Source: Eggerthellaceae bacterium (lineage in GTDB: Bacteria; Actinomycetota; Coriobacteriia; Coriobacteriales; Eggerthellaceae). From it: a stretch of DNA of 38,011 bases. Of the stretch, positions 958 to 22,041 are shown piece after piece. Within the stretch, counting starts at the first letter, position 1. Each line of letters starts with the position of its first letter. The notes below the pieces were generated by a model, which had not been told where the DNA came from, did no database searches, and saw nothing but the letters and a program-made list of their open reading frames with translations. Where the stretch lies: contig JALCHN010000017.1 of the NCBI GenBank assembly GCA_022644775.1, forward strand, positions 1-38,011. The letters are read 5' to 3'. A program made the translations under genes and the position numbers.

Positions 958-2523
958 CTACGATCGGTCCTCGTTGCGCAGTTCGTCGATCGTGGCTTCT
1001 ACCACTTGCAGAAGCTCCTGCTGTGAATGGACGTCCATCTTGCCGTAGATATTGCGGATGTGGGTCTTAGCGGTGGAAGGAGATAGCACGAGCGCATCGG
1101 CAATCGATTGCGCGGTGTGCCCGTGTGCCAGATGGCCGAGCACCTCGGTTTCGCGTGCGGTGAGATGGTAGGTGCTGGCCAGTTGCGTGCAGGCGCGAGC
1201 GAGCTTGTTGCCCTGCAGCTCGCGCGCAGCGGAAGAAGCGGCCACTGCGCCGGTCTCATTTTTGTTGGAAGACCCGGCGTTGGTGTGCGCAACCTCGGCG
1301 CTCACCTGGCTCGACGAAAGCTGGAACACGACGATGCACGCCAAAAGAACTGCGAGCGACACGATTGTGCAAATCGAAAACGCGAGCGGCGAGGGGTGCT
1401 CGAGCACCACCGAGCTGGCCGCGATACCGGCGTTGAAGCAAATATAGGCAACGCACCAGGGCATGAGCATATGCTCGTGGTCGATCAGCACGAAGGGCGC
1501 AATCATGATGAAGAAGAGCACGAGCTTGTGGGTGGCGTCGAGCAACATCAGGTAGAAGAAGGCCGAGCCCGCGCCCAGGTAGGCCGAAAGGTAAAGGGAC
1601 AAGATCACCAACGGCGGCAGCAGGAGGTTGACGAGCTCGATCGTATGGCGGCTCCATGCCGTCTGAATGAACAGCAGCAACAGTGCGCCCGCGCAGGCCG
1701 TGCCGGCGCCGGCGCCCAGCTGCACGATCAGCGACGTGGTCGACTGGTCCTGGATGATCGTCCACTGATAGTGCACCTGGCCGAACATGAGCGCATAGCA
1801 GAAGATGGGCACGCACAAGGTCGCGAGCGCCACGGCGTAGCGCTTGCCAGCGCCGCGCACCGCCAGCGCCACCGATTCGTCGATGCGGAAATCCATGTCG
1901 CCGTCGTCCACGGGAAAGCGCTTCGACGAAAGGTCGCGCCGAAACAGGCTGTACTCGCGGAAGTAGCCGAAGCAGCCCGCTGACACAAGCGGGGTCATGG
2001 CCACCACGCTCACGCCGGCCGGAACCTGCAGAAACGAAATCATCAGGTAGGTCACACCGGCGAACAACAGCCCCACCGAATAGATAACGGCCACGTGCTT
2101 GGCACCGAACGGCAGCAGGTATACCGTCCAGCCGAAGAGCAGCATGCCGCTACAGCAGTAGACCAGCACGTAGGCAACTTCGCGCACGGGCGCCACCGAC
2201 GGTACGATGCCCTGGTTGAGTGCGGCGAAAATCGATACCGAAAACAGGAGCGCATTCGTCCACATTAGGGGCATCGCGTGCGCATGGAAGGGTGCGGGAT
2301 TGCGCCGATAGAGCAGGGCGGCACCCACGAGCAACAGGGTCGCTGCGATAGCGGCGACGGCGTGGTAGTTGCCGCCGCTATCGACTACGCGCAGCGTCGA
2401 AAGACGCAGGCAGGCGGCGGCGATAATCGCGCAGTTCAGCCCGAAAGCCGCCACAAGGGCTCCGGGCACGTCGGCGCACGTTTGCAGCAACGCCGATTTC
2501 TTCGACGCAGTAGCGTTCTCCAT
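958..2523 (-). CDS. Membrane-embedded LuxR-family regulator 1
   Basis: A 521-residue protein with about 12 hydrophobic helices over residues 15-420 and a C-terminal LuxR/GerE helix-turn-helix in the last 75 residues (LTARETEVLGHLAHGHTAQS, then STAKTHIRNIYGKM). Fusion of a multi-pass membrane domain to a LuxR DNA-binding domain defines a family expanded in Eggerthellaceae. Members are reported to control neighbouring catechol dehydroxylase genes in response to substrate. Divergent placement next to the molybdoenzyme operon at 2802 suggests it is that operon's regulator (inference). The ATG at 2523 follows GGGAGGAA at good spacing; the longer in-frame start lacks a ribosome site and would add non-membrane sequence. 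A TATACT -10 candidate sits about 25 nt upstream (2548-2553, minus). The ligand is unknown. Confidence 0.85.
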   Translation of the reverse strand: MENATASKKSALLQTCADVPGALVAAFGLNCAIIAAACLRLSTLRVVDSGGNYHAVAAIAATLLLVGAALLYRRNPAPFHAHAMPLMWTNALLFSVSIFAALNQGIVPSVAPVREVAYVLVYCCSGMLLFGWTVYLLPFGAKHVAVIYSVGLLFAGVTYLMISFLQVPAGVSVVAMTPLVSAGCFGYFREYSLFRRDLSSKRFPVDDGDMDFRIDESVALAVRGAGKRYAVALATLCVPIFCYALMFGQVHYQWTIIQDQSTTSLIVQLGAGAGTACAGALLLLFIQTAWSRHTIELVNLLLPPLVILSLYLSAYLGAGSAFFYLMLLDATHKLVLFFIMIAPFVLIDHEHMLMPWCVAYICFNAGIAASSVVLEHPSPLAFSICTIVSLAVLLACIVVFQLSSSQVSAEVAHTNAGSSNKNETGAVAASSAARELQGNKLARACTQLASTYHLTARETEVLGHLAHGHTAQSIADALVLSPSTAKTHIRNIYGKMDVHSQQELLQVVEATIDELRNEDRS

Positions 2524-2801
2524 GATGCAGTTCCTCCCTCGTGCGTGAGTATAGCAGCGCTCGCGGCGCCTTACGGCGAGCTTTACGCCGACTAGAGAGA
2601 TGACCTGGGAAAACGCGACAAGATACCACCCAGAGTAGTAGGCGTCATCCCTCGTCTCGACCCTGATTTCCCGCTCGATTCCCATTGTCGGCGGTACGAC
2701 AGCGCCCCGCGCCCCGCCTAACGTTGAATGCGTCGCGCGGCGCCGGCCCCATCCGCCGCCGCGTATTCGTGAAGCGAGAAGGAAACATGAGGAGGAGAGA
2801 G
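2524..2801. promoter_or_regulatory. Divergent control region of cassette 1
   Basis: This 278-nt gap separates the regulator and molybdoenzyme starts. Visible elements are a minus-strand TATACT -10 candidate (2548-2553), a motif shared with cassette 2 and the MFS promoter (2602-2617), and an inverted repeat TGTCG-N6-CGACA (2686-2701). The ribosome site AGGAGG lies 6 nt before the ATG at 2802. A nearby in-frame ATG at 2787 has a weaker, closer AAGGA. No strong consensus sigma-70 promoter is visible for the rightward operon, as expected if it needs an activator. Confidence 0.5.
2602..2617 (+). promoter_or_regulatory. Candidate regulator box GACCTGGGAAAACGCG
   Basis: The core ACCTGGGAAAACGCG matches 14 of 15 positions of ACCTGGGAAAACACG on the minus strand at 9401-9415, upstream of the second cassette. 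GACCTGGGAAAACG also matches 13 of 14 positions at 27734-27747, upstream of the MFS gene. That the site binds a LuxR or other shared regulator is inference. Confidence 0.4.
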
Positions 2802-5717
2802 ATGCAGAAGAATTCGAGCCTGCTGGGCAAGACGCTCACGCGCCGTGCGTTCGCCAAGATTTCGGCAATCGCCGCCGGCGTCGCCGCGGTCGGGTCGAAC
2901 GTCGCTCCGCAGGCGCTTGCCGAAATCTCCGGCACCGACGTCGTGCAGGACCAGGGCGGCGTCAAGCGCGTCCGTTCCTGCTGCCGCGCATGCGGCAAGA
3001 TGGAATGCGGCGTGTGGGTTGTCGTGGAAAACGGCCGCGCCATCCGCACCGAAGGCGATGAAAGCGCCTTCCATTCCATGGGCAACCACTGCAGCAAGGG
3101 CCAAGCGTCCCTGCAGGCGGCCTACCATCCCGACCGTCTGTACCACCCGATGAAGCGCACGAACCCCAAGGGCGAAGACGACCCGGGTTGGGTGCGCATT
3201 TCCTGGGACGAAGCCATGGAAACGATTGCCGACAAGATGCAGGAATGCATCGACAAGTACGGCGGCGAAACGGTCTTCGGCATGAGCGGCACGAGCCGCA
3301 TCTGGGGCATGTTCGCCTACGGCGCCTTGGGCCAGCTGTCCGGTTCGCCCAACATGTGCATCCCCTGGGAAGTGTGCAAGGGCCCGCGTTTCTTCGCGAC
3401 GGCCATGAACTCCATGATGCAGGCCAGCTGGATGGAAACGGTCAGCCGCCCGCTCGTCTACACGGCGTGGGGCACAGGCCCGGAGATTTCCAACTACGAC
3501 GACAGCTGCCGCACCATCGTCGACGTGTGCACAAAGGCCGAAAAGCACATCGTCGTCGACCCGCGCCTCACCAACGAAGGCAAGGAAGCCGATCTCTGGC
3601 TCAACCTGCGTCCCGGAACCGACGGCGCCATGGTTTTGGGCTGGACCAAGTACGTGGTCGACCATGACCTCTACGACGACCTCTTCCTGAAGAAGTGGAC
3701 CGACGCCCCCTTCCTGGTGTGCAACGACATCGAGCCTGACGGCCCCCAGCGCTACCGCTTTACGTCGGGCACCTACCAGGTGAAGACGCGCCTTCTGAAG
3801 GAAAGCGACCTCAAAGAGGGCGGCAGCAAGGCACGCTTCATGGTGTGGGACAACCTTGCCAATCGTCTGACCTACTTCGATTCCGATACGGGTATGTGGG
3901 AAGGCGAGAACTGGACCAAGCCGACTGCCGGCAAGGAAGCCCAGCAGCACAATCTGGTTCCCGGCGTGTCCGAGGGCTTCGTGATCGACCCCACGCCCTT
4001 CGACCCGATGATCGACCCGGCCGTGACCGGCGAGTTCACCGTCACGCTGAAGGACGGCACCACGTCGACCGTGCGCCCCGTGTGGGATTACTACATGGAT
4101 CGTCTGGGGGACTACACGCTCGACAAGGTTTCCGATATCACCGGTGTGAAGGAAGAGACCATCGAAGAGGCCGTGAAGACGTGGGCGACCCGCATCGACC
4201 CGTCGACCGGCTACGGCAACGGCGGCATCCACTACCAGCTGGCCATCGAGCACAGCTGCAACGCCATCGCCTTCGTGCATGCCATGGACACGCTGATCGG
4301 CATCACCGGCAACTGGGACACCCCGGGCGGCCATCGCGGCGGCACGCAGGGTCCCTTCATCATGAAGGCCGGCCTGGGCGCCGTGGCGCCGGGCATCCCC
4401 AACATCACTTCCGACCAGTTCGACAAGATGGTCGGAGGCGACGACTACCCGCTGCTGAAGTGGTGGCAGGGTTGGGCCGACGACGCGTCGGTGTGGAAGG
4501 CCATCGAAACCGAGCAGCCTTATCCGTTGAAGTTCGGCTGGTGCTCCACCGGCGACTTCATGTGCATGTCGAACCCGTCGCAGAAGTGGAAGGCGTTCCC
4601 CAACGTCGATTTCTTCGTCTGCGAGGATTTGTGGAAGACCCCGACCGCCGGCATGGCCGACATCCTGCTGCCCGCCGAGCACTGGCTCGAATCGAGCTGC
4701 CCGCGCATGTCGCAGGGCCCGAGCGGCGCCATGGGCGCGACCGTGCGCGCGATCGACCCGCCTTCCGACGTGCTGCACGACGTTGAGATTTCCACGCGCA
4801 TCTACAAGCAGATGGGCAAGCAGTGGGGCCCCGACGACAATCCCTGGCCCACCTACGAGGAAAACCTCGACATCATGCTCAACACGGGCAATCCGAACCC
4901 CACCACCTGGCAGGAGTTCAAGGAGGACTTCGAGAAGAACGGCTGGAAGGACACCAAGGTCCTTTGTCCCGACACCTGGGGCACCTATCGCCGTTACGAG
5001 ACGGGCATGCTGCCCCTGAAATGCTTCGGCGACTCCGGCACGACGCCCATGACGCGCCCCGGTTTCGGCACGCCCACGCTGAAGATGGAAATCTGGTCCA
5101 CGATCATCGAGACCTGGTGCCCCGACATGGAATCCGACTTCCTGCCCGACTACCAGGAGCCGCCCCTGTCGCCGCGCGTGGCGCCTGAAATGAACGAGAA
5201 GTACCCCTTCACCGCCACTACCGGCCGCCGCATTCCGGTCTACTTCCACAGCGAACATCGCCAGCTGCCCTGGTGCCGCGAGCTGTGGCCCGCGCCGCGC
5301 GTGGAAATCAACCCCGACGACGCCCAGCGTCTTGGCATCGAGCAGGGCGATTGGGTCTGGATCGAAAACGACCAGGGCAAGATTCGCCAGACGGCCGACC
5401 TCTACTACGGTATCGCGCCCGGCGTGGTGAACCTTGAGCACCAGTGGTGGTTCCCCGAGCTCGACCAGGCAGACAAGGGCTTCGACCTGAGCACCTGCAA
5501 CTGTCTGGTGACCACGGGCAAGGGCTTCCAGGACCGTCTGTGCGGCTCGAGCTACCTGCGCGCCTACCCGGTCAACATCTACAAGGCCACGGCCGACAAC
5601 AGTCCCTTCGGCGACCCGGTTCCGTGCGACCACAACGGCAACGAGATCATCCACGACTCGAGCGACCCGCGCCTGAAGGCGTGGCTGCCCGACTACAGCG
5701 TGCGAGAGGAGGCATAG
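2802..5717 (+). CDS. Tat-exported molybdopterin oxidoreductase 1, catalytic subunit (catechol dehydroxylase-like)
   Basis: A 971-residue member of the DMSO reductase family. Residues 1-45 form a Tat signal (TLTRRAFAKISAIAAG, ending PQALAE). A [4Fe-4S] site follows at C61-x2-C64-x4-C69-x27-C97. The bis-MGD domains run on from YPDRL/HPMKRTNPKGEDDPGWVR-like sequence to the C-terminal cofactor-binding domain (TGRRIPVYFHSEHRQLPW). C192 in EVCKGPRF is a candidate Mo ligand, conserved in the paralog; this is inference. It should act outside the membrane, receiving electrons through the adjacent B and C subunits. Sequence type, operon and divergent LuxR regulator resemble Eggerthella and Gordonibacter catechol dehydroxylases; the substrate cannot be assigned. 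The ATG at 2802 was preferred to 2787 because AGGAGG lies 6 nt before it. The stop is 1 nt from the next ATG. Confidence 0.88.
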   Translation: MQKNSSLLGKTLTRRAFAKISAIAAGVAAVGSNVAPQALAEISGTDVVQDQGGVKRVRSCCRACGKMECGVWVVVENGRAIRTEGDESAFHSMGNHCSKGQASLQAAYHPDRLYHPMKRTNPKGEDDPGWVRISWDEAMETIADKMQECIDKYGGETVFGMSGTSRIWGMFAYGALGQLSGSPNMCIPWEVCKGPRFFATAMNSMMQASWMETVSRPLVYTAWGTGPEISNYDDSCRTIVDVCTKAEKHIVVDPRLTNEGKEADLWLNLRPGTDGAMVLGWTKYVVDHDLYDDLFLKKWTDAPFLVCNDIEPDGPQRYRFTSGTYQVKTRLLKESDLKEGGSKARFMVWDNLANRLTYFDSDTGMWEGENWTKPTAGKEAQQHNLVPGVSEGFVIDPTPFDPMIDPAVTGEFTVTLKDGTTSTVRPVWDYYMDRLGDYTLDKVSDITGVKEETIEEAVKTWATRIDPSTGYGNGGIHYQLAIEHSCNAIAFVHAMDTLIGITGNWDTPGGHRGGTQGPFIMKAGLGAVAPGIPNITSDQFDKMVGGDDYPLLKWWQGWADDASVWKAIETEQPYPLKFGWCSTGDFMCMSNPSQKWKAFPNVDFFVCEDLWKTPTAGMADILLPAEHWLESSCPRMSQGPSGAMGATVRAIDPPSDVLHDVEISTRIYKQMGKQWGPDDNPWPTYEENLDIMLNTGNPNPTTWQEFKEDFEKNGWKDTKVLCPDTWGTYRRYETGMLPLKCFGDSGTTPMTRPGFGTPTLKMEIWSTIIETWCPDMESDFLPDYQEPPLSPRVAPEMNEKYPFTATTGRRIPVYFHSEHRQLPWCRELWPAPRVEINPDDAQRLGIEQGDWVWIENDQGKIRQTADLYYGIAPGVVNLEHQWWFPELDQADKGFDLSTCNCLVTTGKGFQDRLCGSSYLRAYPVNIYKATADNSPFGDPVPCDHNGNEIIHDSSDPRLKAWLPDYSVREEA

Positions 5718-5718
5718 G

Positions 5719-6384
5719 ATGACCCAGTACGCGATCGTCACCGACGTGAACCGCTGCGTCGGCTGCCTGGCCTGCAGCGTGGCCTGCAAGGCATTGAACG
5801 GCGTGCCGGTGGGCAATTTCTGGAACAAGACCCTGCGCATCGGGCCCAACCCCAAGTACGAGGGAGCGCAATGGCCCGACGTGGACATGTACTTCCTTAC
5901 CGTGCAGTGCCAGCACTGCGAGGACCCCGAATGCGTGAAGGTGTGCCCCACGCAGGCCAGCCACAAGCTGGAAGACGGCACCGTGCAGATCGACAAGGCT
6001 AAATGCATCGGCTGCCAGTTCTGCGTCATGAGCTGCCCCTACGGCGTGCGCTACCTCAACGAGGAGGAGCGCGTGGTCGAAAAGTGCACCCTGTGCGAAC
6101 AGAAGATCTCGCAGGGCGAGCTGCCTGCCTGCGTGGCGCAGTGCGGCGGCCGTGCCCGCTTCTTCGGCGACCTTGAGCAGGGGATCGAGAACTTCGAAGC
6201 CCCCTACACGGTCGACATCACCGAAGGCGACCCCAGCTACGACAAGACCGTCAACAACCGCATCAAGCTGAAGGACATCGTGCGCGACTACAGCGACGAC
6301 CAGGTGCACATGCTCACCAACGTGGGCAACAACCCGAGCTTCCGCTACATCGTGCGCAAGCATATCTGGCGGGGGGAGGAGTAA
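5719..6384 (+). CDS. DmsB-like ferredoxin subunit 1 (four [4Fe-4S] clusters)
   Basis: A 221-residue electron-transfer subunit with the four cysteine groups of the DmsB/NrfC/PhsB family: CVGCLACSVACK near residue 14, CQHCEDPECVKVCP near 70, CIGCQFCVMSCP near 97, and CTLCEQ with a later CVAQC near 126-140. It should pass electrons between the membrane anchor and the catalytic subunit encoded just upstream. It has no signal peptide of its own, as is usual for subunits exported bound to a Tat substrate. The start is 1 nt after the upstream stop and is served by GAGGAGG inside the end of that gene, indicating translational coupling. It is nearly identical to the cassette 2 subunit up to about residue 155, and the C-terminal 65 residues diverge. 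Confidence 0.92.
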   Translation: MTQYAIVTDVNRCVGCLACSVACKALNGVPVGNFWNKTLRIGPNPKYEGAQWPDVDMYFLTVQCQHCEDPECVKVCPTQASHKLEDGTVQIDKAKCIGCQFCVMSCPYGVRYLNEEERVVEKCTLCEQKISQGELPACVAQCGGRARFFGDLEQGIENFEAPYTVDITEGDPSYDKTVNNRIKLKDIVRDYSDDQVHMLTNVGNNPSFRYIVRKHIWRGEE

Positions 6385-6386
6385 AC

Positions 6387-7256
6387 ATGGAACTGCAATG
6401 GCCTCTCATCCTGTTCACCACGTTTGTGGCGGCTTCGTGCGGCCTGTTTGCCGCCCAGGGCGTCTATGCGCTCAAAGGCGAGGCGAAGGAAGCGCAGATG
6501 CCGGCCTTGTGGACGTCGTTTGTCCTGCTCGTGGTTGGCGGCATCGCCGTGTTCTTCCACCTGCAGCATTGGGAGCGCATCTTCAACGGCTTCGGCCATA
6601 TCACCAGCGGCATCACCCAGGAGCTTATCGCCATCGTGGTGCTCGTGGTGGTCATGATCGTGTGCTTCGCGCAGCTGCGCCGCGAAAGTGAGATGACCAA
6701 GGGCGTCGCCTGGTGCGCGATTGTGTTTTCCGCTGTGCTCGTGATTGTGGCGGGGCACAGCTACATGATGCCGAGCCGTCCCACCTGGGATAGCTTCTTC
6801 GGCCCGCTGTCCCTGCTGGGTGCGGCCGCAGCGTTTGGCCCCGGCTTGTTCGCGGCGATTGCGAGCGCCAAGGGCGCCGAGCTGGGCGACGCGCTCACCG
6901 GCAAGGTCGCCCTGGTGGGGACCGCCGCGAACGCCGTGCTCACCTGCTGCTACGTGGCCGTCATGGCCGTGGCGGGCGGTTCGTTCACCCAGGTCGGCTA
7001 CAGTTTCGACCCCACGCATCCCAACAAGGCGCTGCAGGACGCGGCTGCCTACGGGCCCTTCGCGGGCGGCGCGGCCTGGTCGACGACGATCGCGATTGTG
7101 GCCGCTCTGGCGGCGCTTGCGGTGGCCATCGTGGCCCGCAAGAAGGGCAACTGGAAGGTGATGGGCGCTGCTATCGCGGTGCTCGCTTTCGCCGGCGCCA
7201 TCGCCCTGCGCGTGACCTTCTACCTCACCGGCGGCAGCGTGTTCATGTACTACTAG
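6387..7256 (+). CDS. DmsC-like membrane anchor subunit 1
   Basis: A 289-residue integral membrane protein with about eight hydrophobic helices, matching the DmsC anchor family in length and layout. Landmarks are the opening MELQWPLILFTTF, the conserved FHLQHWERIFNGFGH after the second helix, and GHSYMMPSRPTWD in the middle. It probably anchors the catalytic and iron-sulfur subunits to the outer face of the membrane and exchanges electrons with menaquinol (family knowledge). It starts 2 nt after the preceding stop with GGGGGGAGGAG as ribosome site, so the three genes form one operon. The first half is much closer to the paralog at 13165 than the second half. Confidence 0.9.
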   Translation: MELQWPLILFTTFVAASCGLFAAQGVYALKGEAKEAQMPALWTSFVLLVVGGIAVFFHLQHWERIFNGFGHITSGITQELIAIVVLVVVMIVCFAQLRRESEMTKGVAWCAIVFSAVLVIVAGHSYMMPSRPTWDSFFGPLSLLGAAAAFGPGLFAAIASAKGAELGDALTGKVALVGTAANAVLTCCYVAVMAVAGGSFTQVGYSFDPTHPNKALQDAAAYGPFAGGAAWSTTIAIVAALAALAVAIVARKKGNWKVMGAAIAVLAFAGAIALRVTFYLTGGSVFMYY

Positions 7257-7761
7257 CCGCCTAGCCTGCGGGCAGCGCGGACCTTCCGGTGCGCGTCTCG
7301 CAGGCGACGGGGCCGAGCAGGGCTCGGCCACTCTGGTTAAGCGCACGTCAAGTGCCCTTCAGCGACGGGGCCGGTCCCCCTTCCTCTTTTCCGGTCCCGT
7401 CGTGGTGCCGGGCTCCGGCTACCCTCCTTCGGCCGGAGCCCATGGCGCCCACGCAGGGCGCCAGGCGGGAAGCACGCCCGCCGACGAAGCCCCCAGCGGG
7501 CGCGACTCGAACCCCATACCCCCTTGCAAACACGAGTCGCGCGCGCCGGGGGCTTCGTGCGTGTTGCGGGAGGCGGCTGTCAGTGCGGGAACAACCGTTG
7601 ACAGCTCCGCCGGTCGGTCGGCGGAAGCGCAGACGCGGCGGGTCTATCTTCCGGTCTAGGCTTTGTCGTTGTGCTCGGCTGCCGCTTTGTATGTTCTGAG
7701 CGGTCTGTTTGAGGCACTATCCATACCCATTGCTGCCGTGTGCCTCTTGCTGCGCAGCCGC
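7257..7761. other. 505-nt intergenic region after cassette 1
   Basis: No gene is supported here. It holds a small hairpin GGCCGAGC/GCTCGGCC (7311-7329) downstream of the operon stop, the 72-nt conserved hairpin (7486-7557), and a further stretch up to about 7655 that is homologous to 14273-14370. The two operon tails share AGCTCCGCCGGTCGGTCGGC and flanking bases after the hairpin. Confidence 0.65.
7486..7557. repeat. 72-nt conserved hairpin downstream of operon 1
   Basis: Identical over all 72 positions to 14201-14272. The outer stem GAAGCCCCC (7486-7494) pairs with GGGGGCTTC (7548-7556). The inner stem GGCGCGACTCG (7499-7509) pairs with CGAGTCGCGC and GCC. A C-rich loop of about 23 nt remains. 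There is no U run, so it is not a classic terminator. It may stabilise the 3' end of the mRNA, bind a factor, or be a dispersed repeat; none is shown. Confidence 0.75.
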
Positions 7762-9291
7762 TTACTCCTCGTGCATGCTATCGACGATGGCGATGAGCTC
7801 CTGAATGGAATGAATACCCATCTTCTGGTAGATGTGCTGCCGATGCGTTGACACGGTGCTTTTAGAAAGGTGCAGCTCTTCCTGGATGTTGGCCAGCGTG
7901 TGTCCCTTGGCGAACAGGGTCATGACCTCGCCTTCGCGTGCAGATAATCCGTATTGGTCGATCACGCGTTGGCACTTCTCGCGGAATCGGTGGCGCGGAG
8001 CGATCGGCAGGATGTTGAGCGCCATGGTGAGATGCTCGTTGGTGAACACGAATGTGGGCACGCAGAGCAGGGCGACGATGCCCGCGATGCAGAAGGGGTA
8101 CACCGTCTGCAGGCTGAACGACCCGCTGAAATAGAGCATCTGACCGGCGACCTGGCCCACGAGCGTGCCGGCGGCCCATCCGGCGCGCGTAAACGCGAAC
8201 GCACGGATGCACGACTCGTAGTAGTGATGACAGAGGCCGCAGATGAGCACCCACACGAACATGCCGAAGCATTGGAAGGCGCCCAGGTTGAAGCTGGTAG
8301 CGAGATAGGTGGGGCCGTCGGGGTAGATGAGGACGCTCGGCGCCAGGGCGGCATCGAGAACCAGCAAGCCGATAACCAGGCTATAGCAGTAGCGCGCGCC
8401 CAACAGCCCCTTCGCGCGCTGCGACACCATAAGCAGACAGATGGCGATGGCGCCTGCCGCCATCAAGAGTCCGCCGGCGCCAACAGCTGTCATGTAGCTT
8501 TGCATGCCGCCGTTCGCAGCGACGACGTTTGCCTGGATGTGAATCGTGCGGATGGTGTAGTTGACGGCGCATGCAATCAACGGCGCAAGGGCAAACGCAA
8601 TGATAAGTTTGCGCAAACGTCGCGTCTGTGTCAGGTCGTAAGGATCGCGCTGGGGCGGGAGCAGAAGCGCATTGATTCCCAAATGCATCGTCTGAGTGCC
8701 GAAGGCGAGCATGAACGCTGAAGCGATAGGCAGCGATGCGCAGAACAGGACATAGGTATAGGTTTCAAACAGTTGGCCCATAAGGAAGAGAACCATGGCT
8801 GCGATATAGGCGATAGCTGCTGCGGCGGTAGCGCGGCGCGTGTCCAGGATGCTCAGCGTGATCCCGAAGCGCAGCAGGAACAACCCCGATGTGATTCCCG
8901 AAAGGACGCCTGCTGCGGTGAGCACCGCGAGCGATGATGCGCCTGGCGCTCCGAGCAGCAACGTGCACAGGTTGCTTACGCTCATGCCCAGCGGAAGCAG
9001 CGCATAGGAGAGGCGGCGTTCCATCAGCTGTCGGGCCTTTTCGGGCATAAGACCTGCCGCTGCGAGCGTAACGGTGATCGCGAGAGACGAAACGAAATAG
9101 ACGGTGTTGAGCATTTGCTCTCCGTCGGCGAATGCGGCGAACTGGCCCATGCTCTGGAACGACGACATCACCCAAGCCATGTTGAACGCGAGTGCGATAC
9201 CGAGCGAGACGACGGGCGCCGAGAAAAGGGTGTCGGGGACGACGGCGACTTGGCGCGCGTCGCGCGCATTCGCCGGGTTCGATTGGTTCAT
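7762..9291 (-). CDS. Membrane-embedded LuxR-family regulator 2
   Basis: A 509-residue paralog in architecture of the regulator at 958. About 12 hydrophobic helices cover residues 25-430, then comes a C-terminal LuxR helix-turn-helix (YGLSAREGEVMTLFAKGHTL, then STVSTHRQHIYQKMGIHS). It is transcribed away from the second molybdoenzyme operon, mirroring cassette 1, and is presumably its dedicated regulator. The N-terminal membrane domains of the two regulators are clearly different in sequence, unlike the nearly identical B subunits. Different inducers are therefore plausible (inference). The ATG at 9291 has AGGAGGA about 7 nt upstream, and longer in-frame starts lack this. A perfect TATAAT lies 22-27 nt before the start on the same strand. 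Confidence 0.86.
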   Translation of the reverse strand: MNQSNPANARDARQVAVVPDTLFSAPVVSLGIALAFNMAWVMSSFQSMGQFAAFADGEQMLNTVYFVSSLAITVTLAAAGLMPEKARQLMERRLSYALLPLGMSVSNLCTLLLGAPGASSLAVLTAAGVLSGITSGLFLLRFGITLSILDTRRATAAAAIAYIAAMVLFLMGQLFETYTYVLFCASLPIASAFMLAFGTQTMHLGINALLLPPQRDPYDLTQTRRLRKLIIAFALAPLIACAVNYTIRTIHIQANVVAANGGMQSYMTAVGAGGLLMAAGAIAICLLMVSQRAKGLLGARYCYSLVIGLLVLDAALAPSVLIYPDGPTYLATSFNLGAFQCFGMFVWVLICGLCHHYYESCIRAFAFTRAGWAAGTLVGQVAGQMLYFSGSFSLQTVYPFCIAGIVALLCVPTFVFTNEHLTMALNILPIAPRHRFREKCQRVIDQYGLSAREGEVMTLFAKGHTLANIQEELHLSKSTVSTHRQHIYQKMGIHSIQELIAIVDSMHEE

Positions 9292-9312
9292 GCAGCTTCC
9301 TCCTGGCGCTCC

Positions 9313-9332
9313 ATTATACCCAGTGTGTGGGT
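9313..9332 (-). promoter_or_regulatory. Promoter -10 and operator-like palindrome of regulator 2
   Basis: The minus strand carries TATAAT at 9318-9313, giving a leader of only about 15 nt before the AGGAGG-led ATG at 9291. Immediately upstream is the palindrome ACCCA-gtgtg-TGGGT (9318-9332), which overlaps the promoter spacer. No good -35 hexamer is seen at 16-18 nt, which suggests activator dependence or autoregulation. Confidence 0.5.
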
Positions 9333-9400
9333 TCGGCATCCTCGTTTGGGCGCGCATGCTCATACCTTGTTCTCTCGTGACGCAAAGCGTGCAATTGGTT

Positions 9401-9416
9401 CGTGTTTTCCCAGGTA
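9401..9416 (-). promoter_or_regulatory. Candidate regulator box, cassette 2
   Basis: The plus strand reads CGTGTTTTCCCAGGTA; the minus strand reads TACCTGGGAAAACACG. It matches 14 of 15 core positions of the box at 2603-2617 in the equivalent divergent region of cassette 1, but in the opposite orientation relative to the operon. Confidence 0.4.
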
Positions 9417-9482
9417 AATGGCATCGTGCTCTGAGCATGAGGGCGAAATTGTGTGCAAATCGTGGCGCTTGCTCGATGTGCG

Positions 9483-9510
9483 GGGTCCCTCGAAGCGGCA
9501 AGTTGGACCC
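9483..9510 (+). promoter_or_regulatory. Leader inverted repeat before operon 2
   Basis: GGGTCC (9483-9488) and GGACCC (9505-9510) are perfect inverted arms with a 16-nt loop, 14 nt before the AGGAGG ribosome site of the second catalytic subunit. It could be an operator or a leader hairpin affecting translation. It has no counterpart at the same place in cassette 1. Confidence 0.3.
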
Positions 9511-9536
9511 ACAGGCACATTCGAGAGGAGGAATGT

Positions 9537-12521
9537 ATGAGTCACTTCAATATGACCCGCCGCGCGTTCACGAAAACGGCAGCCGCCACATTGGCGGTGG
9601 GCGCTCTCGCAAGCGCGAGCGCGGGTTCTGCTCTTGCCGAATCGACAACGACGTCTAATTCGTCAAGCGGGGAAGTGAGGCGCGTTCGTTCCACCTGCCG
9701 CGGCTGCGGCAAGATGGAATGCGGCGTGTGGGTGTACGTGAAGGATGGGAAGGTCATCCGCAGCGAAGGCGACGAGGATGCCTTCCAGTCGATGGGCAAC
9801 CACTGCAGTAAGGGGCAGGCTTCGCTGCAGGCGGCCTATCATCCCGATCGCCTGCAGTACCCTATGAAGCGCACGAATCCCAAAGGCGACAGCGACCCGG
9901 GTTGGGTGCGCATCTCTTGGGACGAGGCCATGGATACAATTGGCCAGAAGTTTTCCGAACTGCAGTCGCGCTACGGCAATGAAACCTACTTCAGCATGGC
10001 GGGCACGAGCCGTATTTGGTCGATGGGCCCCTATGCCGCGTTGAAGCAGTGCTTCGTGTCGCCCAATGCCATCCAGGCAAACGAGATTTGCAAGGGTCCG
10101 CGCTTTTATGCCACCAAGCTTAACGACTACAACGCCTACAGCTGGATGGAAGTGGTCGGCAGGCCGAAGGTCTATGTGCAGTGGGGCGGCGCTTCCGAAC
10201 TGTCCAACTACGACGACAGTTGCCGCACCACCGTCGACGTGGCGACGCGCGCCGTCAAGCACATCGTGGTCGACCCGCGTCTTACCAACCTCGGCAAGGA
10301 GGCCGATATCTGGCTGCCGCTACGTCCCGGCACCGACGCCGCCATGGCGCTTGGTTGGATCAACGTCATTATCGACAAGGGCCTAATCGACGACCTCTAC
10401 GTCCGCAAATGGATGAACGCTCCAATGCTGGTAGTGGAGGACAGCGATTGGGAACCCACCGAAAGCGATTCCACTCATACGCACGGCACCACGAAAAACC
10501 ACCTGCTCAAGCAGTCCGACATCATGGAGGGCGGCTCGAACACGGCTTTCATGGTGCTCAATGAGGTCAACAATCAGCTCACCTACTACGAAGCCAACGG
10601 CGCAACAGCTGCCTCATCGGTGACGGGCGCGAGTTCGGCCGGGCTTTCGGGCGGCACGTCGGCGTCGGGCACCGTGCTGCCTCATTGGGAGGGCGAGGAC
10701 TGGAAGCCGGCAACCGCCGGCAAGCAGGCCAATCAGGCGGGCCTCGACCTCACCGGTCAGTCGCAGGGTTTCGTTATCGATCCGACCCCCTTCATCGACG
10801 GCCTCTATCCGGCGCTGTTCACGCCGGAAGGCGGCCTGGAAGTCACGTTGAAAGATGGCCGCACCGTGCACTGCCGCACCGTGTGGGAACATCTAATCGA
10901 CCGCGTGAAGGACTACACGCCCGAGCGCGTGGCCGAAATTACCGGCTGCGATGCCGACAAAATCGTCGAAGCCGCCGTCACGTACGCGACGCGCGTCGAC
11001 CCCGATAGCGGCTATGGCAACGGCGGTATCCAGTACATGCTGCCGTTGGAACACAGCTGCAATAGCCTGCAGACGAATCGCTGCATGGATATCCTCTGCG
11101 GCATCACCGGCAACATGGACATTCCGGGCGGTATGCGCGGCTCGACGGCCGGTTGGCCCTTCTTTGACCTGGCCATGACCCTTCCGTCCGCGTCTTCAGT
11201 GAAGGGCAGCCCCGACCAATCGAAGATCATCGGCAGCGACAAGTTCCCGCTGCTCGCCGACCCCAAGTGCAATCCCAGCTGGGCGGACGCCACGAGCATC
11301 TACGAGTGCATCGACACGGGGAAGCCTTATAAGCTTTCCTGCGGCATCGGCCAATCGGGCGACCACATGAACCAGTCCAATAGCCTTTATGCCTACGAGC
11401 AGCTGCAGAAGCTCGACTTCTGGGTGTCGATCGATATGTGGAAGACGCCCACGGTGGGCATGGCCGATATCGTGCTGCCGTGCGCCCATTGGATGGAACT
11501 CGACTGCATCCGTAAGAGCCAGGGCTCTTCGGGCTCGTTCGGCGCTACGTGCAAGGTTGTCGACCCGCCGGCGGAAGCCGAACCCGACCTGAAGATCGTC
11601 ATGCGGATTTTCAAGGCTATGGGTCAACCTTATTCCAAAGACCCCGACGACCCGTGGCCCATCGACAACGCCGAAGAGGTCTGCGGCAACATCAGCCTCG
11701 CCGGCTTCCGCATCCCCGATTGGAACGATTACAAGGAAGAGTTCCAGAAGAACGGCCCCTTCGATTCGAAGGTAGAAAAGCCCGAAGCTTGGGGCACCTA
11801 TCGTCGCTATGAAACCGGGTGGGCTACGACTTCCGACCAACCGGCGGCCTTGCAGAAGGTAATGGACCATCCGCAAGGGTGGGATACCACTACCGGCAAG
11901 CAGGAAATCTGGTCGACGGTGCTCGACAGCTATTATCCCGATGACGACGCCGCGATTCCCAACTTCCGTGAAGCGCCGCACGGCCCCGTAGCCGATCCCG
12001 ACCGCTACACGACCGACAACGACTTCCTGGCTACGACCGGGCGCCGCATCCCGGTCTACTTCCACAGCGAACATCGTCAGCTGCCGTGGTGCCGCGAGCT
12101 GTGGCCCGTGCCCCGCATCGAGATGAACCCGGCTGACGCCGACAAAATCGGCGTGACTCAGGGCGATTGGGTGTGGATCGAAACCGAATGGGGCAAGATT
12201 CGCGAAGTAGTCGACCTGTATTACGGCATCAACCAAGGTGTAGTGAACCTGGAGCACCAGTGGTGGTTCCCGGAGCTCGACCAGGCAGACAAGGGTTTCA
12301 AGCTCTGCGGCGCCAACTGCCTAATCGATAAAGATGCACAGGACCCCTTCATCGGCTCGTCGAACTTGCGCGCCTACGCCGTGCATGTCTACAAGGCTAC
12401 GGCTGACAACAGCCCGTTCGGCGACCCGGTGCCCTGCGGCGACGATGGCACCGAAATCATTCACGATTCGAGCGATCCGCGCCTGAAGGCATGGGCGCCC
12501 ACATACGAAGGGAGGGACTAG
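9537..12521 (+). CDS. Tat-exported molybdopterin oxidoreductase 2, catalytic subunit (catechol dehydroxylase-like)
   Basis: A 994-residue paralog of the enzyme at 2802. It has a Tat signal (NMTRRAFTKTAAATLAVGAL, ending SALAES), a [4Fe-4S] site C54-x2-C57-x4-C62-x27-C90, and candidate Mo-ligand C185 in EICKGPRF. The N-terminal and C-terminal thirds align almost gap-free with paralog 1. The middle differs more, including an added Ser/Gly/Ala/Thr-rich segment at about residues 355-379, absent from the paralog. Low-complexity insertions are unusual in this family, and this one probably forms a surface loop. Like its sister it should act outside the membrane on an organic electron acceptor; the substrate is unknown. 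The ATG at 9537 follows AGGAGG at 6 nt. An overlapping ATG at 9533 is out of frame. The stop is 1 nt before the next start. Confidence 0.88.
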   Translation: MSHFNMTRRAFTKTAAATLAVGALASASAGSALAESTTTSNSSSGEVRRVRSTCRGCGKMECGVWVYVKDGKVIRSEGDEDAFQSMGNHCSKGQASLQAAYHPDRLQYPMKRTNPKGDSDPGWVRISWDEAMDTIGQKFSELQSRYGNETYFSMAGTSRIWSMGPYAALKQCFVSPNAIQANEICKGPRFYATKLNDYNAYSWMEVVGRPKVYVQWGGASELSNYDDSCRTTVDVATRAVKHIVVDPRLTNLGKEADIWLPLRPGTDAAMALGWINVIIDKGLIDDLYVRKWMNAPMLVVEDSDWEPTESDSTHTHGTTKNHLLKQSDIMEGGSNTAFMVLNEVNNQLTYYEANGATAASSVTGASSAGLSGGTSASGTVLPHWEGEDWKPATAGKQANQAGLDLTGQSQGFVIDPTPFIDGLYPALFTPEGGLEVTLKDGRTVHCRTVWEHLIDRVKDYTPERVAEITGCDADKIVEAAVTYATRVDPDSGYGNGGIQYMLPLEHSCNSLQTNRCMDILCGITGNMDIPGGMRGSTAGWPFFDLAMTLPSASSVKGSPDQSKIIGSDKFPLLADPKCNPSWADATSIYECIDTGKPYKLSCGIGQSGDHMNQSNSLYAYEQLQKLDFWVSIDMWKTPTVGMADIVLPCAHWMELDCIRKSQGSSGSFGATCKVVDPPAEAEPDLKIVMRIFKAMGQPYSKDPDDPWPIDNAEEVCGNISLAGFRIPDWNDYKEEFQKNGPFDSKVEKPEAWGTYRRYETGWATTSDQPAALQKVMDHPQGWDTTTGKQEIWSTVLDSYYPDDDAAIPNFREAPHGPVADPDRYTTDNDFLATTGRRIPVYFHSEHRQLPWCRELWPVPRIEMNPADADKIGVTQGDWVWIETEWGKIREVVDLYYGINQGVVNLEHQWWFPELDQADKGFKLCGANCLIDKDAQDPFIGSSNLRAYAVHVYKATADNSPFGDPVPCGDDGTEIIHDSSDPRLKAWAPTYEGRD

Positions 12522-12522
12522 C

Positions 12523-13161
12523 ATGACCCAATATGCAATTGTGACCGACTTGAACAAGTGCGTCGGCTGCCTTGCGTGCAGTGTGGCTTGCAAGGCCATG
12601 AATGGTGTGCCCATTGGCAACTTCTGGAACAAGACCCTGCGCATCGGGCCCAATCCCAAGTACGAAGGCGCGCAGTTCCCCGATGTCGAGATGTACTTCC
12701 TCACTGTGCAGTGCCAGCACTGCGAGGACCCCGAGTGCGTGAAGGTCTGTCCCACGCAGGCCAGCCATAAGCTCGACGACGGCACCGTGCAGATCGACAA
12801 GAGCAAGTGCATCGGCTGCCAGTTCTGCGTCATGAGCTGCCCCTACGGCGTGCGCTATCTGAACGAGGACGAGCGCGTGGTCGAAAAGTGCACTCTGTGC
12901 GAGCAGCGCGTGGCTCAAGACGAGCTGCCCGCCTGCGTGGCCCAGTGCGGCGGGTTCGCCCGCTGGTTCGGCGACTTGGACGAAGGCATCGAAACCTTCC
13001 GCGGACCTTACGGCAAGCAGCTGGGCGAGTTGGTAGGGGATGGGTGCGACTATCCGGTGAAGCCGTTTTCCGATAGTGACGTGCATACGCTGCCCAACGT
13101 GGGCAACAACCCCAGCTTCCGCTATATCCTGCGCGACCGCACGTGGCAGGGGGAGGAGTAG
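12523..13161 (+). CDS. DmsB-like ferredoxin subunit 2 (four [4Fe-4S] clusters)
   Basis: A 212-residue paralog of the subunit at 5719 with all cluster cysteines kept (CVGCLACSVACK, CQHCEDPECVKVCP, CIGCQFCVMSCP, CTLCEQ...CVAQC). Residues 1-155 are close to identical to paralog 1. The tail (from about residue 160) is 9 residues shorter and diverged until it reconverges at NVGNNPSFRYI. That shows where the two complexes may differ in contacts with their own catalytic or anchor subunits (inference). It starts 1 nt after the preceding stop, with GGAGGGA as the ribosome site inside the upstream gene. Confidence 0.92.
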   Translation: MTQYAIVTDLNKCVGCLACSVACKAMNGVPIGNFWNKTLRIGPNPKYEGAQFPDVEMYFLTVQCQHCEDPECVKVCPTQASHKLDDGTVQIDKSKCIGCQFCVMSCPYGVRYLNEDERVVEKCTLCEQRVAQDELPACVAQCGGFARWFGDLDEGIETFRGPYGKQLGELVGDGCDYPVKPFSDSDVHTLPNVGNNPSFRYILRDRTWQGEE

Positions 13162-13164
13162 ATC

Positions 13165-14034
13165 ATGGAACTGCAATGGCCTCTCATCCTCTTCACAACG
13201 CTGCTCGCCTGGTCATGCGGGTTGTTCGGCGCCCAGGCGGCGGCCGCCCTCAAGGGCGAGGCCGAAAAGGCGCAGGTGCCCGCGCTCGCGTGCTCGGTCA
13301 TCCTGCTCGCCGCCAGCGGCATAGCCGTCTTCTTCCACCTGCAGCATTGGGAGCGCATCTTCAACGGTTTCGGCCACATCACGAGCGGCATCACGCAGGA
13401 GCTCATCTTCATCGTGGCGCTCGTGGTCGTCATGGTCGTCTACTTCGCCGACCTGCGCCGCAACGGCGCGCCCGGCAAGGCGGTCGCCTGGTGCGCAGTC
13501 GTCTTCTCAGCGGTTCTCGTGCTCGTGGCCGGTCACTCCTACATGATGCCCTCCCGCCCCGCGTGGGATACCTTCCTTGGACCGCTGTCGCTTCTGGGCG
13601 CCGCGCTCGGCGCCGGCCCCGCGACCTTTGAGCTGATCGCCTCCTTGAAGGGCGGCACGGCCGACCCCGACGGAGCTGGGGATCGCCTGGTCCTATGGGG
13701 GAGCGTCGCCAATGCCGCGCTCGTCGCCGTCTACGTTGCCGCGATGGCAGCCGCGGGATCGGCGTTCACGAGCGTGGGCTACAGCTTCGACCCGACGCAT
13801 CCTACCGAGGCGCTCGCGTCGGCGGCGGCCTACGGTCCCTTCGCATCGGGGACGGCGCCCTTCTCGGTGGGGGCGATCGTCTGCGCCGTCGCCGCCCTCG
13901 CGGTGGCCGCCGCCTTCCGGAAGAAGCCGCGCGCGGCCGTCTTCGCCGTCGTCGCGGCCCTGGCGGTGGCGAGCGCGCTGCTCCTGCGCGTGGCCTTCTA
14001 CCTCTGCGGCGGGGACGTGTTCATGCTCTACTAG
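13165..14034 (+). CDS. DmsC-like membrane anchor subunit 2
   Basis: A 289-residue anchor of the same length as paralog 1, with the same opening MELQWPLILFTT, FHLQHWERIFNGFGH and GHSYMMPSRP motifs and about eight membrane helices. The stop-to-start gap is 3 nt, and the ribosome site GGGGGAGGAG is within the upstream gene. The third-position GC here is noticeably higher than in paralog 1 (long runs of GCC, CTC and GTC). Base composition has therefore drifted or been acquired differently after duplication. The role inferred from the family is membrane attachment and menaquinol oxidation for the second complex. Confidence 0.9.
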   Translation: MELQWPLILFTTLLAWSCGLFGAQAAAALKGEAEKAQVPALACSVILLAASGIAVFFHLQHWERIFNGFGHITSGITQELIFIVALVVVMVVYFADLRRNGAPGKAVAWCAVVFSAVLVLVAGHSYMMPSRPAWDTFLGPLSLLGAALGAGPATFELIASLKGGTADPDGAGDRLVLWGSVANAALVAVYVAAMAAAGSAFTSVGYSFDPTHPTEALASAAAYGPFASGTAPFSVGAIVCAVAALAVAAAFRKKPRAAVFAVVAALAVASALLLRVAFYLCGGDVFMLY

Positions 14035-15647: not shown

Positions 15648-16229
15648 CTATACGAATTCGTAGCGGTTGATCTTGCGGCGTGGGGCTTTGCCCTCCTTCG
15701 CGGGGTAGCCGAAGGTGAGTAGCGAGCAGAACTGGCCGTTTTCGGGCGCGAAGGCGGTGCGCAGCTTTTCGCCCACGCCGGCGTCGAGCGGCGCGGTGAG
15801 CCAGCAGCTGCCGATGCCCTTGGCGCGTGCGGCCACGAGCATGTTCTCGATCGCGGCGCCGATCGAAAGGCTCAAGACCTTGGGGTCCTTGCCGTTGAAG
15901 TCGGGCTTCTGCCAGAAGACGAGCACGTAGACGGGCGCGCCGCCGAGCTGGCGGATGAACGAGCACGTCTCTTCAACGACTTCCGGATGGCCCTCGAAGG
16001 CCTGTTTGAGGTCGGGCTCCACGCTTTTGGCCACGACGCCCATGAGCTCGTCGACTTTGCGCTTGGCTTCCGGGCTGCGCACGACGACGAAGTGCCAGGG
16101 CTGCATGTTCGAGCAGGACGGGGCGTAGAGCCCGCATTCCAGGATGTCCTTGAGATCCTCGTCGCTGACGGGCTGGTCGGTGTAGGCGCGGATGCTGCGG
16201 CGGGTGAGGATGGCTTCCTGGGCTTCCAT
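15648..16229 (-). CDS. Nitroreductase-family FMN oxidoreductase
   Basis: A 193-residue protein of the nitroreductase (NfsB/FRP) superfamily, whose members bind FMN at a dimer interface and use NAD(P)H. Family landmarks are LTRRSIRAY at the start (phosphate-binding RRS), APSCSNMQPWHFVVV near residue 36, a central IGAAIENMLVAARAKGIGSC, and a late FGYPAKEGKAPRRK. The substrate could be nitroaromatics, quinones or flavins and is not readable from sequence. The ATG at 16229 follows AAAGGGA. It is a single-gene unit with its own terminator at 15601-15635 and is not in an obvious operon. Confidence 0.9.
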   Translation of the reverse strand: MEAQEAILTRRSIRAYTDQPVSDEDLKDILECGLYAPSCSNMQPWHFVVVRSPEAKRKVDELMGVVAKSVEPDLKQAFEGHPEVVEETCSFIRQLGGAPVYVLVFWQKPDFNGKDPKVLSLSIGAAIENMLVAARAKGIGSCWLTAPLDAGVGEKLRTAFAPENGQFCSLLTFGYPAKEGKAPRRKINRYEFV

Positions 16230-16311
16230 GGAATCCCTTTCGACGAATGATGCAGGTCGTTGCTTGGATTGTAGCAACGCGAGGAGGCGGAATTTCATTC
16301 AGGCTTGCGGC

Positions 16312-16362: not shown

Positions 16363-16399
16363 GAATGAGTCAAAGAGATGTGACCCCTTTGACTCATTC
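16363..16399. repeat. GAGTCAAAG palindromic element, copy 1
   Basis: The arms GAATGAGTCAAAG (16363-16375) and CTTTGACTCATTC (16387-16399) flank the loop AGATGTGACCC. The core recurs at 24851 and 35573. This copy supplies the TGA stop (16394-16396) of the UvrD-like gene on the minus strand. Confidence 0.8.
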
Positions 16400-18521: not shown

Positions 18522-19559
18522 CTATTGCGAATGCTGAAGCGTCTTCGCCTCCTCTTTGACGGCGATTGCGGGTGCAGGCCCTTCGTCCTGCGTGCGCGCG
18601 ATCAGCGGGAAGGTGATTGCGCCTGCCGGACAGGCGTCGGCGCAGGCACGGCAGCGGGTGCATTCGTTGGCGCGCGCGGCCCCCAGTTGCGGATGACGCG
18701 GGTCAATGCCCTCGTCGCAAGCGCGCCCGCAGGCGCCGCAGCGACGGCCCTTCGACGTTTCCAGGCACTTTTCGTTGTCGATCGTGGGCAGAACCGTGCG
18801 GTTGGCGCGGCCCAACAGCGACATGAGCGCGCCGAGCGGGCACAGGGTATGGCACCACTTGCGAAAGAAGACCACTTCGGCGAGCAACAGGGCGGGCACC
18901 ACGATCAACGACACCGTCACGTCGCCCACGCCGAAGGCCCGCATGACCAGCAGAATCGTGGCGAAGGTGAGTCCGATGGGGCAGACCAGGCAGAAGACGG
19001 GGAACCCGAAGATCGCCGCCGACCCCAGCGCGCCCGCAAGCACGGCGCCGCGCGAGTCGAACACGCGGGTTCCGTGCGAAGAGTGCGCCTCGTGGCAGGA
19101 CTGTGCGAGCAAGGCCTTCTCCTCATCGGTGAGGGGAGCGCCGGGGGCGAGCTTGGGCGTGCGTGCCGCCGCCTCTTCGGCGTCTTTCTTCGTGCGGCCG
19201 CCCTTGGCGAAGGCACGGCGCAGCTTCGCTACCGACGGCACCGGGCAGACCCATCCGCAGAAGGTGCGGCCCAGCAGCAGAATGAGCACCGCGACGATTG
19301 CGAGCGAGATGAGCGCCCGCGGCACGAGGAGCTTGCTCGCCAGCATGGTGCCCAGAGCGCCCAGCGGGCAGAGCACCGACACGTCCATCCAGCCGAAATC
19401 TGACAGGGTACCGAACCCCTTGTGCAGGCCGAAGCCCAAAGCAACCACGACCATGACGATCCAGGGCAGCACGCGGCGCAGCGTGGAGAGCCCGGGTTTG
19501 GCTCCCGATGCCTTGCCCTGGGCGCGCGCGGATTTCTTCTCTTCCGTATCTCTATTCAT
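18522..19559 (-). CDS. NapH-like membrane polyferredoxin (quinol dehydrogenase type)
   Basis: A 345-residue membrane protein of the NapH/NosR/CcoG type. Four to five helices carry the motifs CGWVCPVPS, CLVCPIG and CHTLCPLGA, which on the cytoplasmic side resemble the paired CxxxCP motifs of NapH. Two C-terminal [4Fe-4S] sites follow (CGACGRACDEGID and CTRCRACADACP). NapH works with NapG to draw electrons from menaquinol for a periplasmic reductase (family knowledge). The start follows GGGAGG. The NapG-like gene ends 12 nt upstream, so they are co-transcribed. An insert of charged sequence between helices (about residues 115-165) is longer than in Escherichia coli NapH. Confidence 0.82.
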   Translation of the reverse strand: MNRDTEEKKSARAQGKASGAKPGLSTLRRVLPWIVMVVVALGFGLHKGFGTLSDFGWMDVSVLCPLGALGTMLASKLLVPRALISLAIVAVLILLLGRTFCGWVCPVPSVAKLRRAFAKGGRTKKDAEEAAARTPKLAPGAPLTDEEKALLAQSCHEAHSSHGTRVFDSRGAVLAGALGSAAIFGFPVFCLVCPIGLTFATILLVMRAFGVGDVTVSLIVVPALLLAEVVFFRKWCHTLCPLGALMSLLGRANRTVLPTIDNEKCLETSKGRRCGACGRACDEGIDPRHPQLGAARANECTRCRACADACPAGAITFPLIARTQDEGPAPAIAVKEEAKTLQHSQ

Positions 19560-20960: not shown

Positions 20961-21005
20961 GGAATGCTCCTTGTGGTTCACATGCGGATGCGTGGGTGCG
21001 GTGCG

Positions 21006-21824: not shown

Positions 21825-21852
21825 TTCCGCCCCTCGGACAATAGCTTGCAGG

Positions 21853-21911
21853 CTGCTTTTCGTGCCTGAATACACGAAAAGCAGGAGCCGCACCCCTGCG
21901 GTTCTGCTTTT
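21853..21911. promoter_or_regulatory. Mutually exclusive hairpins between divergent genes
   Basis: CTGCTTTTCGTG (21853-21864) and CACGAAAAGCAG (21873-21884) are perfect arms with an 8-nt loop. The second arm can instead pair with the downstream GCGGTTCTGCTTTT (21898-21911) through AAAAGCAGGAGCCGC, with one bulge. The two folds exclude each other, as in attenuators or antiterminators. The same palindromes could equally be binding sites for a repressor. Confidence 0.5.
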
Positions 21912-22041
21912 GCAAACTATGATCCGCGGCCCTTGCACGGCCGGCGGAATAACCCCGCGCCCAGCATAGTCACGCCTGCCAAAGGCTGTCAACACCGAAT
22001 TCTGCGCACTGTACTGCCGAGGGCGCGAGGCTCAGCGCGTC

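Follow-up and report, generated by a model that had tools for sequence, protein, structure and literature searches.

The closest described systems to the locus reported here are the catechol dehydroxylase genes of Eggerthella lenta, whose hypervariable cluster encodes five enzymes (Vadh, (+)-Eddh, Cadh, (-)-Eldh1, and eCadh) in ABC operons with divergent regulators and shared accessory genes (PMC11887054). In a foreign host, Cadh is active only with the E. lenta accessory genes, and Dadh depends on most of these genes individually (PMC11887054). Acetylene hydratase is reported to be the nearest relative of the catechol dehydroxylases (PMC7028382). Published catechol dehydroxylase clusters are isofunctional at an identity of at least 72%, and resemblance between adjacent regulators has served as a guide to the substrate, as for Gp Hcdh through HcdR (PMC11585353); more than 100 catechol dehydroxylase clusters are without a known substrate. 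In this study, we analyzed a window of 38,011 nucleotides from a gut bacterium of the Eggerthellaceae (assembly GCA_022644775.1, contig JALCHN010000017.1, positions 1 to 38,011), which is contig 17 of a 1.96 Mb draft genome. Positions 958-14034 hold two full units, each consisting of a minus-strand regulator (R) divergent from a plus-strand operon of catalytic (A), ferredoxin (B), and anchor (C) genes. The kind of system is already known, its molybdenum enzymes removing hydroxyl groups from catechols of plant and host origin, and the window probably holds a two-cassette island of the Eggerthella type, in which cassette 1 places an uncharacterised ancient enzyme behind a CadR-type sensor and operator, and cassette 2 is of the eCadh/eCadR type. 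The features of the two cassettes are as follows.

958-2523, minus strand: R1, membrane-bound LuxR regulator, CadR-type (GerE domain; in a clade with E. lenta CadR, support 100/100)
2624-2640, no strand: predicted R1 operator, TACCAC-CCAGA-GTAGTA (12/12 motif match)
2802-5717, plus strand: A1, bis(molybdopterin guanine dinucleotide) (bis-MGD) catalytic subunit of an uncharacterised clade; twin-arginine translocation (Tat) signal; predicted metal ligand Cys192; His493
4278-4280, plus strand: codon CAT of A1 His493, equivalent to Dadh position 506 (two alignments)
5719-6384, plus strand: B1, 4Fe-4S ferredoxin subunit (Pfam)
6387-7256, plus strand: C1, DmsC-like membrane anchor (Pfam, clear match)
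7762-9291, minus strand: R2, membrane-bound LuxR regulator, eCadR-type (clade of 16 rows, support 100/99)
9423-9441, no strand: predicted R2 operator, ATCGTGC-TCTGA-GCATGAG (13/14 motif match)
9537-12521, plus strand: A2, bis-MGD catalytic subunit of the eCadh clade, with Arg515 at the 506-equivalent (clade support 100)
12523-13161, plus strand: B2, 4Fe-4S ferredoxin subunit (Pfam)
13165-14034, plus strand: C2, membrane anchor (DmsC just under the Pfam gathering score; 67% identical to C1)

An earlier note on this DNA had described two complete side-by-side units with divergent LuxR, catalytic, ferredoxin, and anchor genes, and Pfam matches, hydropathy, and intact reading frames all agree with that description. 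Pfam places a LuxR helix-turn-helix domain (PF00196) at the C-terminus of R1 and R2, molybdopterin oxidoreductase domains in A1 and A2, and 4Fe-4S domains in B1 and B2. By hydropathy, R1 has 12 membrane segments and R2 has 11, which fits the LuxR class with 10-12 transmembrane segments (PMC9734109). Both A1 and A2 begin with a signal-like stretch carrying the twin-arginine motif RRAF, read directly from the sequence. The starts of R1 (2523), A1 (2802), R2 (9291), and A2 (9537) were set by ribosome-binding sites, and a start at 2787 is also possible for A1. Between units 1 and 2, identity is 56% for A, 80% for B, 67% for C, and 27% for R.

At 16.4-24.1 kb, the window contains six accessory genes in the same order and relative orientation as in the E. 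lenta cadh cluster, 37-72% identical to their counterparts there.

16394-18346, minus strand: DadhD-like (helicase-like) protein (37% over 571 amino acids to the E. lenta cadh-cluster protein; no Pfam match)
18522-19559, minus strand: NapH-like membrane ferredoxin (57% over 300 amino acids; Fer4 domains)
19572-20231, minus strand: NapG-like ferredoxin (72% over 196 amino acids; domain matches)
20256-20981, minus strand: TorD-like chaperone (65% over 217 amino acids; PF02613)
21006-21995, minus strand: DadhE-like protein (50% over 197 amino acids)
22933-24138, plus strand: DadhI-like ferredoxin (47% over 401 amino acids; domain matches)

The island resembles the E. lenta hypervariable cluster in its ABC operons with divergent regulators and in a common accessory set of unchanged gene order, and the enzymes of the two loci are 42-65% identical. 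The two loci differ in that the window has two cassettes rather than five, that its accessory block lies downstream of the cassettes rather than upstream, and that a CadR-type regulator stands before an enzyme other than Cadh. Dadh and its regulator DadR are likewise of the three-subunit type and the transmembrane LuxR class, and Dadh has its own accessory set and anchor type. The earlier note had likened the layout to catechol dehydroxylase loci of both Eggerthella and Gordonibacter; the Eggerthella half of the comparison stands, whereas the Gordonibacter enzymes are two-subunit and cytoplasmic (PMC11887054).

The phylogeny of the catalytic subunits was analyzed in a tree of 118 relatives and in a second tree, of 46 rows, under a mixture model. 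Both A1 and A2 fall among Dadh, Cadh, eCadh, Vadh, (+)-Eddh, and (-)-Eldh1, inside the catechol dehydroxylases and not in another branch of the dimethyl sulfoxide (DMSO) reductase family. By tree, architecture, and syntenic accessory block, both units are assigned to the Eggerthella-type catechol dehydroxylases, as the earlier note had supposed, and the genes needed for activity in E. lenta have counterparts in the island. On this basis we infer catechol-type substrates for A1 and A2. A2 falls in a clade with the (-)-epicatechin dehydroxylase eCadh (Elen_0515; support 100), with 65% identity to the E. lenta enzyme (68% over aligned columns), and a Senegalimassilia orthologue is 83% identical to A2. 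A1 is one of eight members of a different clade, which draws on Senegalimassilia, Parvibacter, Candidatus Aveggerthella, and others; most of these are 76-77% identical to A1, and none is characterised.

The named reference enzymes were taken from genome G054, which is taken to be E. lenta DSM 2243 on the following grounds among others. Residue 506 of the reference Dadh is Ser, in agreement with publications on DSM 2243, and the gene adjoins a transmembrane LuxR gene and a LysR gene. Counted gene by gene, the cluster agrees with Elen_0497 (Vadh), 0501 ((+)-Eddh), 0511 ((-)-Eldh1), and 0515 (eCadh), and Cadh is Elen_0507 by elimination. Identities agree with the published values: 51.1% here against 50.9% for Cadh-Dadh, and 52% in both cases for eCadh-Cadh (PMC7028382, PMC11887054). 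An E. lenta enzyme of 1205 residues at 3.52 Mb is most likely Hcdh, because its identity to Dadh (34.6%) fits the published Hcdh figure (35.3%; PMC7028382, PMC11887054). A third relative of 1267 amino acids is encoded elsewhere in the genome of the window (L129, G000 contig 23, positions 3102-6905); it shares 82% of aligned residues with the likely E. lenta Hcdh and comes with separate B, C, and accessory genes and with no adjoining transmembrane LuxR gene.

In the regulator tree, R1 clusters with E. lenta CadR (100/100), and R2 belongs to the clade of the eCadh regulator (16 rows, 100/99); these memberships are the same for the membrane part and the DNA-binding part. R1 and CadR share 37% of residues across their membrane parts and 63% across their DNA-binding parts; the corresponding values for R2 and the E. 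lenta eCadh regulator are 36% and 60% (38-39% overall). Cassette 2 resembles eCadh and its regulator in enzyme clade, regulator clade, and promoter motif alike. Cassette 1 resembles the (+)-catechin system CadR/Cadh (Elen_0506/0507) in its regulator and motif, while A1 lies outside the Cadh clade. The other enzymes of the A1 clade carry eCadR-type regulators, except one (G097) with a divergent LysR. Grouping R1 with the regulators of the A1 clade was rejected (p=0.0004), as was grouping A1 with Cadh (p=2e-6). Because R1 is CadR-type while A1 is not Cadh, and both regroupings are rejected, the pairing of regulator and enzyme has changed in cassette 1, which apparently exchanged its membrane sensor and DNA-binding site for those of a different enzyme. 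The earlier note had expected the enzyme to diverge together with its sensor; unit 2, an eCadh-type enzyme with an eCadR-type sensor, fits this expectation, but unit 1 does not. On these trees, the evolution of a sensor is not necessarily tied to that of its enzyme. A possible route is seen in Parvibacter, in which [CadR-Cadh] and [eCadR-A1] stand side by side: a deletion in an ancestral array of this form would leave a CadR-type sensor and operator before A1. Among the 118 cassettes, 68 have a transmembrane LuxR regulator and 28 a divergent LysR; in the other 22, neither was found or the sequence was cut. LysR in place of the transmembrane LuxR is seen, for example, at L119:5698-6759 and also before E. 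lenta (-)-Eldh1.

The two promoters carry different inverted repeats, and these motifs track the regulator class, not the enzyme. Each of the 16 eCadR-type cassettes, with an enzyme from either the A2 or the A1 clade, has a match to ATCRTGY-N5-RCAYGAT at 12-14 of 14 positions; CadR-type cassettes match at no more than 10 of 14, and the motif does not occur before A1. The site at 9423-9441 before A2 scores 13/14, a score reached by 2 of 200 shuffles, and a reversed-pattern control gave 0 sites in the same genome. TACCAC-N5-GTRGTA, found by pairwise promoter comparison, matches 12/12 in E. lenta cadR-cadh, in three Cadh orthologues, and at 2624-2640 before A1, compared with at most 9/12 in 26 cassettes without a CadR-type regulator. 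It occurs once in the whole E. lenta genome, before cadh. Eight genomes hold nine such sites, seven of them before Cadh orthologues or A1 (two of the seven, in G053 and G056, identified by position beside Cadh copies), and the exact extended form occurs at four places in 138 family genomes, namely A1 and the three Cadh orthologues. These observations suggest that 2624-2640 and 9423-9441 are operators that would be bound by R1 and R2, respectively. No 12-base word is shared by all seven CadR-type promoters, because two of them (L071:4300 and L077:8902) have another palindrome (TCATACTCGAGTATGA). The latter two CadR-type regulators stand before a different enzyme clade, possibly a second re-pairing. 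The more general pattern ATCRT-N9-AYGAT was considered as a universal site of all transmembrane LuxR regulators and rejected, since only 4 of its 11 sites in E. lenta lie within 150 bp of the start of such a gene. An ATCAT-N9-ATGAT palindrome lies about 145 bp before the start of another transmembrane LuxR gene of E. lenta, beside a different molybdoenzyme (G054 C1:562790-562808).

These regulators are described in PMC9734109, in whose main text our term searches found no named operator, and our literature search found neither an operator nor a link to the major facilitator superfamily (MFS) for them. The candidate operators are, to our knowledge, the first concrete targets for the action of this large regulator family. 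The AlphaFold2 model of R1 (pLDDT 82) matches MFS transporters over residues ~14-408, with Z 23.9 to SLC37A4 (4.0 Å over 352 residues) and Z 23.7 to OxlT, and Foldseek likewise lists MFS proteins. The membrane part of R1 is thus modelled as an MFS-transporter fold, which suggests a way for a catechol to be read: the sensor may bind its ligand as a transporter-like receptor, a shared fold in itself showing neither transport nor ligand.

We propose a scheme for the island based on these features. On sensing a catechol-type ligand through its MFS-fold sensor, each membrane-bound LuxR regulator would switch on the ABC operon divergent from it, acting at an inverted repeat of its own. The A subunit, exported and carrying molybdenum and bis-MGD, would receive electrons by way of ferredoxin B, anchor C, and the NapGH-like proteins of the accessory block, and would take a hydroxyl off the catechol, which would serve as terminal electron acceptor. 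Both cassettes would rely on a single set of genes for assembly and electron transfer. More tentatively, and with slightly less than even confidence, we suggest that these regulators are transporter-fold receptors with private palindromic operators, that sensor and operator are exchanged as one module, and that A1 has thereby come under a (+)-catechin-type (CadR) sensor, its orthologues being controlled by an epicatechin-type (eCadR) sensor or a LysR, while A1 is alone in having His at Dadh position 506. If this is true, inducer and substrate are separable in evolution, against the working rule that regulator similarity predicts substrate. Since orthologous A1 enzymes have three kinds of regulator, guessing a substrate from the regulator can, this suggests, mislead.

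Several points weigh against this interpretation of the island. Overall identity of R1 to CadR is low (40%), and whether R2 comes from the lineage of A2 or that of A1 was not decided (p=0.10). The deep catalytic tree is poorly resolved, with a support of 13 for the A1 and A2 clades together. The isofunctional cut-off of 72% (PMC11585353) is missed by A2 with eCadh, at 65-68%, and both A1 and A2 are below it against any characterised enzyme in the tree. The tree holds neither (-)-Eldh2 (E. lenta A2), which is unplaced, nor the Gordonibacter-type enzymes. The predicted R2 site has a single mismatch. The motifs were derived partly from the sequences on which they are shown; because their fit is partly by construction, the evidence from them rests on their following the regulator class and on their rarity. 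Finally, His493 of A1 rests on one assembly, because the genome is a draft.

His493 bears on whether cassette 1 is decaying or crippled, its enzyme left with little activity and its regulator without matching selection. The column of Dadh Arg506 has Arg in 116 of the 118 relatives, Ser in E. lenta DSM 2243 Dadh, and His only in A1, while A2 keeps Arg (residue 515). A second, independent alignment including Hcdh-type enzymes gave the same result for His493, which lies inside a confident helix (488-501) of the A1 model. Arg at this position is near-invariant here and an activity determinant in Dadh, although it is not a published membership criterion. The Ser506 form of Dadh converts <2% of dopamine (PMC9734109), so that the Arg506Ser change nearly abolishes dopamine conversion by that enzyme, and His493 is the sole departure of A1 among 142 near-invariant columns. 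However, A1 retains all the other near-invariant residues and the metal-ligand Cys, the frames of A1, B1, C1, and R1 are all intact, His is a milder change than Ser, and strain variation or an assembly error is possible. We consider a crippled unit unlikely, at roughly one chance among several. A1 may be impaired, altered, or mis-assembled at His493.

Alternatively, cassette 1 could be the Cadh cassette of this species, a CadR regulator with a diverged Cadh enzyme. The CadR-type R1, its CadR-type site, and the 54% identity of A1 to Cadh would fit, but A1 is of the A1-clade kind over its whole length; a breakpoint was looked for along A1 and none was found. With the grouping of A1 and Cadh rejected as above, and with Cadh and an A1 orthologue occurring side by side in Parvibacter, this explanation is very improbable.

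The two units could instead be a recent tandem duplicate; the earlier note had read them as a tandem duplication in which a respiratory enzyme, along with its sensor, moved to a new substrate. The cassettes are adjacent, B1/B2 and C1/C2 are alike, and no anchor from another genome is as close to C1 or C2 as these are to each other; the A1 and A2 lineages are also possibly deep neighbours, since both usually carry eCadR-type regulators. Nevertheless, A1 and A2 are more similar to their orthologues in other genera (76-77% and 83%, respectively) than to each other, A1 and A2 as sisters were rejected (p=9e-7), and R1 differs in type from the regulators of the A1 orthologues. Because the sister grouping is rejected and each enzyme has its own clade with orthologues from other genera, A1 and A2 are, by phylogeny, old lineages rather than a fresh duplication. 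The history of the locus therefore differs from that proposed: in cassette 1, sensor, operator, and enzyme have been re-paired. A recent duplicate is scarcely credible on these grounds.

The resemblance of C1 and C2 is explained by a wider pattern, since anchors evolve in concert within a genome. In many species, anchors group by genome and catalytic subunits by orthology. For cassette pairs with a catalytic identity <60%, the median anchor identity is 94% within a genome and 47% between genomes, and the anchors of orthologous cassettes in different genomes are 60% identical. The five cluster anchors of E. lenta are 93-100% alike, while their catalytic subunits are 46-55% identical. The E. lenta Dadh anchor, which goes with another accessory set, is only 42-44% identical to the cluster anchors, and the anchor of the Hcdh orthologue in the genome of the window is likewise apart (37-40%). 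By these comparisons, anchors undergo concerted evolution inside a shared-accessory island, and a common anchor may suit a common electron donor. This bears on how dehydroxylase arrays grow and diversify, a question posed in PMC11887054. Ferredoxins show the pattern weakly. The earlier note had called the ferredoxins almost identical for 155 residues; the likeness is indeed high (138/155 identical, 89%, with a divergent tail). In most of the other genomes compared, however, paralogous ferredoxins likewise have a body of 77-85% identity (residues 1-150) and a tail of 43-59%, so that the contrast of conserved body and free tail in B1/B2 is a family pattern and does not by itself point to a recent duplication. 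Gene conversion of B in the recent past was also considered and rejected, third-position identity at conserved residues being 72%.

Membership of another DMSO reductase branch (DMSO, polysulfide/thiosulfate, selenate, or formate) is extremely improbable: the best NCBIfam matches are PhsA, Fdh, DmsA, and type II reductases, but all are far below their curated cut-offs, the enzymes nest among characterised catechol dehydroxylases with matching accessory genes, and acetylene hydratase (2e7z) is the best solved relative of A1 and A2 by sequence, with the metal-ligand Cys aligned, and the first match of the A1 model by fold (Z 37.4 at 2.4 Å over 687 residues, followed by polysulfide reductase with Z 34.9). 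Acetylene hydratase is a single soluble hydratase, whereas the enzymes in the window are predicted to be exported and multi-subunit.

Other genes surround the island. A nitroreductase/BluB-like flavoprotein is encoded between the cassettes and the accessory block (15648-16298, minus strand). Downstream of the island, 26210-30228 (plus strand) encodes an aminotransferase, a lactate/bile-salt-type MFS transporter, and a LysR regulator. These are followed at 30315-37100 (minus strand) by a row of genes for a coenzyme A (CoA)-transferase III, an acyl-CoA dehydrogenase, a CoA ligase of the AMP-binding kind, and a pyridine-nucleotide disulphide oxidoreductase, which could together encode a pathway of the phenylacrylate or carnitine type that reduces an enoyl-CoA.

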